Shown: piece after piece, positions 5,738 to 37,823 of the stretch
Position numbering within the stretch: position 1 is the stretch's first letter
Layout of the letters: every line of letters starts with the position of its first letter
Assembly: GCF_010015585.1 (NCBI RefSeq)
Contig: NW_022985094.1
Coordinates: 124,001-188,000 of the forward strand
DNA from: Eremomyces bilateralis CBS 781.70
Lineage: Eukaryota; Ascomycota; Dothideomycetes; Eremomycetales; Eremomycetaceae
DNA: 64,000 nt
Direction of reading: 5' to 3'
Made by a program: the position numbers and the translations under genes
Notes under the pieces: model-generated
The model's database searches: none
Seen by the model: only the letters and a program-made list of their open reading frames with translations
What the model was told of the DNA's origin: nothing

Positions 5738-6338
5738 TTAAGCCACCAACTGGACAACACCACCAGCACCCTTGATCTTTCGCTCAGCCTCCTGAGAGAA
5801 GAATCGCGCGCGCACGATGATGGGGACTTCTGGAAGTACGCCCTTTCCGAGAACTTTCGAGTAACCGAGAGAAAGGAGGTCGAGAACGGGAGCGGTGTCG
5901 GACTTGGGGTTGGAGATGTATTTTTCGCGCTGCTCCTCGGGAACGAGGGACCAGAGCTAGAAGAACATGTCAGCCACCAGCTTCAGAAGGGCTTGCAAGA
6001 GTTGAGTCTCCACGTACCTTGTCGATGTTGATGGTCGGCTTCCAGAATTGATTCTGGAGCTTGTGGAAATATCTCATTCCAACCTTTCCGAAGTAACCCG
6101 GATGGTATTTGTCGATATTCGTTCGGTGATGATGCTGACCACCGGCCATACCACGACCACCGGGATGCTTTCGGTGCTTGCCGACACGACCGTTACCGGC
6201 GGAGACATGACCGCGGCTGGAGAGATGAGGGTTAGCATCTTTTCCGACGGATTTCAATTAACCGGTAGGCCATTGAGGCACGGAGGACTGGAAATGGGAT
6301 ACTCACTGCTTGCGCGTTTTGAGGAGTCTGGTAGGCAT
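5738..6338 (-). CDS. RPL28: 60S ribosomal protein uL15 (yeast L28 / human L27a)
   Basis: Large-subunit ribosomal protein. Exons on the minus strand: 6338-6307, 6216-6018 and 5956-5738, giving 149 residues, the length of yeast Rpl28. The N-terminus [18 protein letters not shown] joins across intron 1. The basic, glycine- and histidine-rich core ([19 protein letters not shown]) is the signature of the family, and the protein ends [10 protein letters not shown]. The 90-nt first intron directly after a very short first exon is typical of fungal ribosomal protein genes. It shares a 377-bp divergent promoter with FEN1. Confidence 0.96.
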
Positions 6339-6715: not shown

Positions 6716-8086
6716 ATGGGTATCAAGCGTAAGTGTCATATTATCCCCGAAACTGCACATGTACTAAGTACCAAGCAGACTTATTTCAGCTCATTGAGGA
6801 GCATAGCCCCGCGGCGATCAAGCAGGGCGAGATCAAGAATCAATTCGGCAGGAAGGTTGCCATTGTAAGTGTCCTTTTCTCTAAGTCCAATGTATCGTAC
6901 TGATTTTTGTAGGATGCGTAAGCTCTCGTTCAGCCTCTCATTGCACTCTTTCTAATGCACCTTAGGTCGATGAGCATCTACAGCTTCCTGATCGCCGTAC
7001 GAAGTGATGGCCAACAGCTGATGTCTGAGTCCGGCGAAACCACGTCGCATCTGATGGGGATGTTCTACCGAACCTTACGCATGGTCGACAATGGCATCAA
7101 ACCCCTCTTTGTATTTGATGGTGCCCCTCCCAAGCTCAAATCTGGCGAATTGGCGAAAAGATTCCAGCGCAAGTCGGAGGCTCAGGAAGCTCATGAGGAG
7201 GCGAAGGAGACGGGGACGGCAGAAGAGGTGGAAAAATTCTCGAGAAGGACCGTGAGGGTGACGAGAGAGCACAATGCGGAATGTCAGAAGCTATTGAAGC
7301 TCATGGGAATTCCTTACATCATCGCACCAACAGAAGCAGAAGCGCAATGCGCCGTACTCGCAAGAGCAGGCAAGGTCTACGCAGCTGCATCTGAGGATAT
7401 GGACACCCTCACATTTGACGCACCGATTCTTCTTAGACACCTTACATTCAGTGAGCAGCGAAAGGAACCGATTCAGGAGATTCACCTCGCTCAGGTTCTC
7501 GAAGGGTTAGAGATGGAAAGAGATCAGGTGAGTCTGCCCACAACATTTGATAGCTCACAATTAACTTCCCTAGTTCATTGATCTCTGCATTCTTCTCGGC
7601 TGCGACTATCTCGACCCAGTCAAAGGCGTTGGTCCATCCACCGCTCTCAAGTTGATTCGGGAACATAAAACTCTGGAAGGTGTCGTTGAATTTTTCGAGA
7701 AGAGCAATAAGTACACGTTACCGGAGGACTGGCCATATAAGGATGCTCGCCTGCTATTCCTCGAACCTGATGTTCGACCGGCGGACGATCCGGAATGTGA
7801 CTTCAAATGGGAAGCACCTGATGTCGAAGGCCTTGTCGAGTACCTGGTCAAGGAGAAGGCCTTCAGCGAGGATCGAGTGCGGAGCGGGGCGCAACGATTG
7901 CAAAGGAGCACCAAAACGGCTCAGCAGAGTCGACTGGAGGGTTTTTTCAAGCCGGTTCAGCGGACGCCGGAAGAGCAGGCCGCCTTGAAAAGGAAGACCG
8001 ATTCAAAGTTGGAAGAGGCTAAGAAGAAAAAGAAGCAAGCGGCGAAAGAGAAGAAGGATACAAAGGCGAAGCCAAGAGGTGCTTGA
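6716..8086 (+). CDS. RAD27: Flap endonuclease 1 (FEN1/Rad27)
   Basis: Structure-specific nuclease that removes 5' flaps during Okazaki-fragment maturation and long-patch base excision repair. Exons: 6716-6728, 6779-6864, 6913-6917, 6966-7527 and 7574-8086, giving 392 residues. The third exon is only five bases (GATGC); it is required to read VAIDASMSIYSF and supplies the metal-binding Asp34. N-terminal XPG domain starts MGIKHLFQLI; the internal domain contains [10 protein letters not shown] and [10 protein letters not shown]; then [13 protein letters not shown] forms the helix-hairpin-helix region. A PCNA-binding box, QSRLEGFF, lies near residue 345, followed by a lysine-rich tail. All introns are about 46-50 nt with clear donors and acceptors. 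Confidence 0.96.
6913..6917 (+). other. RAD27: 5-nt micro-exon of FEN1
   Basis: The bases GATGC are flanked upstream by a 48-nt intron (GTAAGT to TTTGTAG, branch-like TACTGAT) and downstream by a second 48-nt intron (GTAAGC to CACCTTAG, branch-like CTAATGC). Including it gives the invariant I-D-A-S-M-S; omitting it removes Asp34 and shifts the frame. Confidence 0.85.
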
Positions 8087-36804: not shown

Positions 36805-37823
36805 ATGTCATCCGAAGCGCCCACAGAGTCCGGTCATGGTGAGCAGGAACCGCTGCTCGGCGTAAGTGTCTTTGGAGTCTTGGAGATTGCCCGAAAAGCG
36901 GTACCTAACGGCCTTCATATTTCTAGAGAACCGGAGATGCCTCACAAGTCGATGGCAAGCCCTTGGTACATAATCTGGTTCTCGGTATGATCCTGCCGCT
37001 CAGTGATCTGAGATCTCCAAACCTCATGGCTGACGATTTGGAAAGGAACCGCCATTGTAGGACAATTTGGCATCTGGATCGTAGGTTCTACCGAATCAAT
37101 TCATCATAGAACCCTATCCTAACTATATTTAGCAGGCTGCTATTGTTTGGTCCGCAGTGTTTTCAAACGATCTGATCTTGTTTTCCGCCCATCCGGTAAG
37201 CTCTATCATCCAGCTTCGCTGTAGAATTTGAGTCCAGCCAGCCTAACTGACCTCAAACAGCTATTGAATACTGTACGTGGATTGCCTCATTGACGGAGCG
37301 CTATGTGAAAAACGATCTAATCGTGAAATAGGCCGGCTTGGTGCTACTGACACAAGGAGCCTTGATCCTGCAGCCGACACATACCCCATCTCAGAAGAAG
37401 CGAGGAACTTACGTACATGGCTTTCTCAACAACCTGGGTGTTGATTGCCTCATTGCAGGTCTCGTCATCATTGAGGTCAACAAGTACAAGAACGGTATCC
37501 CGCATTTCGAGTCGGCCCATTCCATCTTGGGCTTCATCACATATGTCCTCATGTTTCTCCAGGCGATCGTCGGGTTCCTCCAATACTTTACTCCGACGGT
37601 ATTCGGAGGTGAGGCGAAAGCCAAGGCTGTCTACAAGTATCACCGGATATCTGGGTATCTCGTCTTCACGCTAGCTCTTGCTACTGTATGCGCGGCGACT
37701 CAGACGTCCTATAATCGGTCGGTGCTCTTTATTCCGTTGTGGACTGTGATCGTTGCATCGGTGATTACGTTGATGGGGGTCGTTCCGAGGATCAAGAAGG
37801 AGAAGCTTGGGATCTCGAGTTGA
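36805..37823 (+). CDS. Cytochrome b561-domain membrane protein
   Basis: Small transmembrane ferric-reductase/ascorbate-type electron carrier of the CYB561D1/D2 kind. Exons: 36805-36861, 36927-36984, 37046-37080, 37136-37195, 37261-37272 (12 nt) and 37332-37823, giving 237 residues. The 12-nt exon encodes LLNT and rebuilds SAHPLLNTAGLVLLTQG, the b561 core; without it the conserved helix is broken but the frame is kept. Candidate haem-ligand histidines lie in SAHP, YVHGF, ESAHSILGF and YKYHRISGY. Six hydrophobic segments follow a short polar N-terminus (MSSEAPTESGHGEQEP). It probably sits in an internal membrane or the plasma membrane. Five introns in about 1 kb make it the most intron-dense gene here. 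Confidence 0.85.
37261..37272 (+). other. 12-nt micro-exon of the b561 gene
   Basis: Bases ctattgaatact lie between a 65-nt intron (branch-like CTAACTGAC, acceptor CAAACAG) and a 59-nt intron (donor GTACGT, branch-like CTAATCG, acceptor AAATAG). They encode the conserved LLN of the b561 family. Confidence 0.8.

Follow-up and report, generated by a model that had tools for sequence, protein, structure and literature searches.

The gene predicted at 6716-8086 on the plus strand of the 64-kb window (the whole stretch of DNA that was analysed) raises the question of whether five bases, GATGC, lying between two short introns, form an exon on which its product depends. In our reading the locus is very probably an ordinary fungal FEN1 gene, present in single copy, whose 5-nt spliceosomal micro-exon is included constitutively. 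We infer the inclusion of GATGC in the mRNA from genomic sequence rather than from transcripts, and the evidence for it comes from translation, alignment, splice-form enumeration and Pfam analysis, each of which indicates that the reading frame and conserved residues of FEN1 need these five bases.

The predicted gene is FEN1, a member of the XPG/Rad2 nuclease family, as a preliminary description of this DNA had already named it. A comparison of its spliced 392-aa product with the PDB set gave human FEN1 with an E value of 9.7e-133 and no gap up to residue 264, and the product contains the Pfam domains XPG_N (104.1 bits) and XPG_I (110.7 bits), both above their cut-offs. We take the acidic metal-binding residues of FEN1 to be D34, D86, E158, E160, D179, D181 and D233, and all seven are preserved in the predicted protein when it is aligned to the human enzyme (8yjh row). 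A search of the whole 26.6-Mb assembly revealed one FEN1 locus, recovered as three pieces, the remaining four matches being family paralogs with 28-41% identity. We therefore give practically no credence to a pseudogene or an assembly error, in which the exon would be an artefact of forcing a FEN1 reading on the sequence: we found no point in favour of this, and the sole FEN1 locus in the assembly has a full-length open frame in which four of four introns are GT-AG. Head to head with FEN1 lies a gene of the ribosomal protein L27A/uL15 type (5738-6338, minus strand), the two predicted coding regions being 377 bases apart.

The five coding exons of the predicted gene, of 13, 86, 5, 562 and 513 nt, are separated by introns of 50, 48, 48 and 46 nt, all on the plus strand. 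Coding exon 1 (6716..6728) encodes MGIK plus one base, leaves no gap against human FEN1 and agrees with the gene model described below; it is followed by intron 1 (6729..6778), which runs from GTAAGT to CAG and has a branch-like ACTAAG. Coding exon 2 (6779..6864), placed by both alignment and gene model, ends in phase 0 with the codon for Ile33. Beyond the micro-exon, coding exon 4 (6966..7527) is likewise placed by alignment and gene model, intron 4 (7528..7573) runs from GTGAGT to TAG, and the last coding exon (7574..8086), which includes the stop codon, is taken from the gene model.

Between exons 2 and 4 the sequence at the junction reads TAG, GATGC (6913..6917) and GTAAGC. Intron 2 (6865..6912) begins with GTAAGT, ends in TAG and has a branch-like ACTGAT; intron 3 (6918..6965) begins with GTAAGC, also ends in TAG and has a branch-like TCTAAT. 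Splice sites and translation thus agree with the preliminary description, which had placed two 48-nt introns at these coordinates on either side of GATGC. The five bases supply the Asp34 codon and begin the Ala35 codon with two bases, which the first base of exon 4 completes, and as an internal exon between two introns GATGC falls well within the limit of 15 nt for a micro-exon. Skipping it would leave a protein that runs to KVAI and then through 13 new codons to a stop, which bears out the earlier statement that skipping removes Asp34 and shifts the frame. Although 48 nt is divisible by three, each of the two introns holds an in-frame stop, so that its retention would truncate FEN1: after 12 new codons in the case of intron 2, and directly after Ala35 in the case of intron 3.

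These consequences also bear on the possibility that the 101-nt stretch from 6865 to 6965 is a spliceosomal twin intron (stwintron), removed completely in two steps. Two adjacent introns of fungal size would suit such an arrangement, but the stretch is not removed as a whole in a message that encodes FEN1, since that message needs GATGC, and without the 101 nt the frame changes and a stop follows 13 codons on; we regard this explanation as having next to no probability. Nor does the junction have the form of a recursive-splicing exon, the next donor lying five bases past it (ATT|GATGC|GTAAGC).

We reasoned from a list of all open splice forms of the region 6779-7060, using GT or GC donors and AG acceptors and allowing either one intron of 35-200 nt (39 forms) or two introns of 35-120 nt (529 forms), with a score for each of the 568 forms from comparison with residues 1-110 of human FEN1. 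The highest of these scores, 373, belonged to the form with GATGC. The second-best form (361) has a poor donor, GTCCTT, and inserts Val-Ser before the aspartate, with GATGC still present, while the best single-intron form reached 347 and has no aspartate at position 34. DASMS occurs in six of the 568 forms, and all six contain the exon 6913-6917; AIDASMS occurs in a single form, the one with GATGC, so the claim that this motif needs the micro-exon stands. Neither DAS nor AIDASMS without GATGC was found among the 568 open forms of 6779-7060, and on this ground we rejected other splice readings of that region. Pfam gave a similar picture, with 106.5 bits for XPG_N when GATGC is included; two of the 39 single-intron forms, both in frame, were tested as well and gave 84.9 and 88.7 bits.

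We also applied a gene model that was trained with no protein comparison. Its training sequence, 264 kb from this genome, consisted of the window plus a further 120 kb of its contig and 80 kb of a second contig. The model combines codon usage, weight matrices for donor, branch and acceptor, and intron lengths, and permits exons of any length. An initial version overpredicted introns (764 in its last round) and a stricter version was used instead. At all three intron penalties the model called exactly the FEN1 exon chain including GATGC, a result to be read with the knowledge that FEN1 lies inside the training sequence, that the starting matrices were hand-typed consensus motifs and that false micro-exon calls occur. 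With one base changed at either inner splice site, the gene score was 58.3 instead of 64.1. The preliminary description had called such an exon easily missed by gene predictors. This holds to the extent that widespread misannotation of micro-exons is reported in plants (PMC8831610), but it is too strong as a general statement, since a simple self-trained model without homology found GATGC.

When the micro-exon was blocked, the model fell back on a single 69-nt intron, 6865-6933, with loss of Asp34. This suggests another reading, in which the 69-nt intron is used instead of, or in addition to, the two 48-nt introns and yields an in-frame product where 11 residues replace Asp34-Ala35, that is, a FEN1 minus one metal ligand. 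Its frame is kept and it is the model's own second choice, but the score of that choice is lower (58.3 against 64.1), XPG_N reaches 84.9 bits instead of 106.5, and the acceptor of the 69-nt intron comes later than the first AG downstream of the branch-like site of intron 2. We judge use of this intron to be very improbable and retain the form with GATGC.

Both flanking introns are ordinary for this genome. Short introns such as these, together with the FEN1 sequence, would suit a filamentous ascomycete (Pezizomycotina). Canonical splice sites (GT-AG) and branch-like signals (ACTGAT and TCTAAT) are present on the two of them, and their length of 48 nt, which most plant introns exceed, is close to the median of 52 nt for the 157 model introns (5th-95th percentile 45-102). 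From the branch-like A, itself counted, to the intron end there are 10 nt in intron 2 and 11 nt in intron 3, the model median being 12. The total of the splice signals places intron 2 at the 93rd percentile of the 157 model introns. Intron 3 is at the 27th percentile, below the genome median, and this counts against the micro-exon reading. Introns 1 (6729-6778) and 2 (6865-6912) share the opening GTAAGTGTC, and their alignment beats 98% of random intron pairs, a similarity that was one of five comparisons made and may be chance. An origin of introns 2 and 3 by tandem duplication of one intron found no support, their similarity being equalled or beaten by 10% of 5,000 random pairs.

The lower score of intron 3 also has a place in the argument that GATGC is a regulated switch, with a notable share of transcripts skipping the exon or keeping a flanking intron and so lowering FEN1, in some condition, by way of early stops and decay. 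All three simple failures tested lead to early stops, a fungal micro-exon that behaves like a switch has been published in Trichoderma Xlr2 (PMC11121469), and plant micro-exons are said to be affected more commonly by retention of the introns around them than by skipping (PMC8831610). Against a switch, the features tested gave no sequence sign of regulation; the local RNA fold around GATGC is unremarkable (z -0.57), with no sign of structure hiding or presenting the exon. FEN1 activity is required for replication in dividing cells, and this general knowledge also speaks against a switch, which we hold to be very unlikely. Somewhat less credible to us is a post-transcriptional valve on FEN1, in which intron 3 would be slow and un-spliced or mis-spliced messages, including the in-frame form without Asp34, would accumulate under some condition; if true, Okazaki-fragment and flap processing would be tuned by the splicing of one exon. 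Constitutive inclusion of GATGC remains our preferred reading.

To see how often such an exon would arise by chance, we shuffled the 101-nt region 200,000 times by dinucleotides, keeping the outer splice sites in place. The arrangement AG|GAYGC|GT with neither intron shorter than 40 nt appeared in five shuffles, and in two when positive donor and acceptor scores were demanded as well, which puts the chance of such an exon in a 101-nt gap at about 1-2.5 in 100,000. With its surroundings the exon forms a 13-base pattern, YAGGAYGCGTRNG, which has one occurrence in the 64-kb window where 0.02 are expected, and is not enriched genome-wide (17 occurrences in 26.6 Mb against 23 for the reversed control). 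The motif alone is not special; its placement in FEN1 is what counts.

How could an exon of this size be spliced? We propose that each 48-nt intron would be recognised as a unit, that is, by intron definition, and that the introns would leave one after the other because there is no room for two spliceosomes to flank a 5-nt exon simultaneously. Intron 2 would most likely be removed first since its signals are the stronger, and a 91-nt exon would then end with GATGC. Nonsense-mediated decay of messages carrying early stops is an established pathway, and mis-spliced FEN1 messages with such stops would be expected to enter it. The preliminary description had held that the splicing machinery must define a 5-nt exon; this goes too far, as intron definition would presumably suffice with introns of 48 nt. 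Published work offers parallels to the proposed route. Intron definition with sequential removal of the two introns has been argued for a 1-nt exon of Arabidopsis (PMC4674806), and a survey of plant micro-exons describes competition between the flanking introns since both complexes cannot assemble together (PMC8831610). In the potato invertase gene, as cited in PMC4674806, the second intron beside a 9-nt exon goes first, which speaks against a fixed order; intron 2 before intron 3 is the order suggested for FEN1 by its own signals.

The FEN1 micro-exon does not seem to be isolated in this genome. At the middle penalty the gene model called five internal exons of at most 15 nt in the 264 kb, and small-exon calls were judged only if present at that penalty. 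Protein comparison backs three of the five: the FEN1 exon (5 nt), a 10-nt exon in a DDX47-like DEAD-box helicase and a 12-nt exon in a cytochrome b561 gene. The helicase exon, ATATTGCAAG, lies at L013:2095-2104 (C28:72095-72104, minus strand, on the window's contig) between introns of 50 and 49 nt and would encode ILQ in FALPILQALI, as compared with FALPILNALL of human DDX47. The cytochrome b561 exon, CTATTGAATACT, lies at 37261-37272 of the window (plus strand), and the Pfam score of the gene is 77.9 bits with it and 70.1 without. Of the other two calls, a 6-nt exon in a cyclophilin gene (L018:8588-8593) was rejected, as Pfam gave 165.9 bits with it and 169.3 without and a single 124-nt intron fits better; the host gene of a 1-nt exon (L022:3048) has no Pfam match. 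The strictest penalty left the FEN1 and helicase exons alone among small-exon calls, while the loosest gave 18, one of length zero. The 264 kb, about 1% of the 26.6-Mb assembly, thus hold three protein-supported predictions of internal exons of at most 12 nt.

FEN1 paralogs were also examined. Four have XPG_I (L003, L004, L005 and L030) and are presumably, from motifs, an EXO1-like, a GEN1-like, an unassigned and an XPG/RAD2-like member, respectively. In all four genes the equivalent aspartate is uninterrupted by an intron, so within this genome a micro-exon at this aspartate is specific to FEN1. In L005 (predicted gene 1000-2805) the first predicted intron follows coding base 14 and that of FEN1 follows coding base 13; the two possibly share an old intron place. 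For FEN1 exon 4, 50 pattern matches in bacterial/archaeal collections and five in viral collections were obtained, and none was confirmed as a relative.

Exons of 1-5 nt have already been published from plants, human and Fusarium, and the FEN1 case adds another example. To place 5 nt close to the lower size limit, as had been proposed, is an overstatement, given published 1-nt exons in APC11 of Arabidopsis (PMC4674806) and CYP621A of Fusarium (PMC12940212), a 4-nt exon in human MPC1 (PMC9929638) and a 5-nt exon in rice validated by RT-PCR (PMC8831610). The Fusarium exon offers a parallel from a filamentous fungus, for it too lies in a conserved motif between short introns and restores the frame, and most model transcripts are reported as wrong at that position (PMC12940212). 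It differs in being 1 nt long, in belonging to a P450, whose function is unknown, and not to a replication nuclease, and in being backed by 20 orthologs and RNA reads, whereas the FEN1 exon was read from genomic sequence. The Fusarium study also suggests that tiny exons are perhaps favoured where introns break conserved motifs (PMC12940212), an idea that the position of GATGC in AIDASMS would fit.

Among the other systems, the small plant micro-exons (1 nt in APC11 and VPS55, 5 nt in rice) resemble the FEN1 exon in being at most 15 nt long, often in housekeeping genes, with loss that shifts the frame or drops residues, and for them cross-species conservation is documented (PMC8831610, PMC4674806), while the FEN1 exon was read in one genome. 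The exon of human MPC1 is constitutive and, like GATGC, not a multiple of three in length, but it lies between introns of more than 12 and 3 kb, in contrast to the 48-nt introns of FEN1, and is recognised by exon definition with the help of an extended signal upstream (PMC9929638). The P450 genes of Phanerochaete chrysosporium are also fungal, with frequent introns of 45-55 bp and exons down to 6 bp, but form a multigene family of a basidiomycete (PMC1184071). Inclusion of the Trichoderma Xlr2 micro-exon is described as glucose-dependent (PMC11121469); for the FEN1 exon we found no sign of regulation. In passages of two Cryptococcus papers (PMC3990503, PMC8022950) micro-exons appear only as an aligner setting. 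Searches of the open-licence literature, which omits most subscription journals, brought up no printed report of the present FEN1 exon.

With exons this small already known, the FEN1 micro-exon is a good annotation example and not a surprise. It shows clearly how a catalytic residue encoded by a replication gene could be lost to automatic annotation, and it makes a compact test case for the removal of introns of ∼50 nt beside an exon too small for two splicing complexes.
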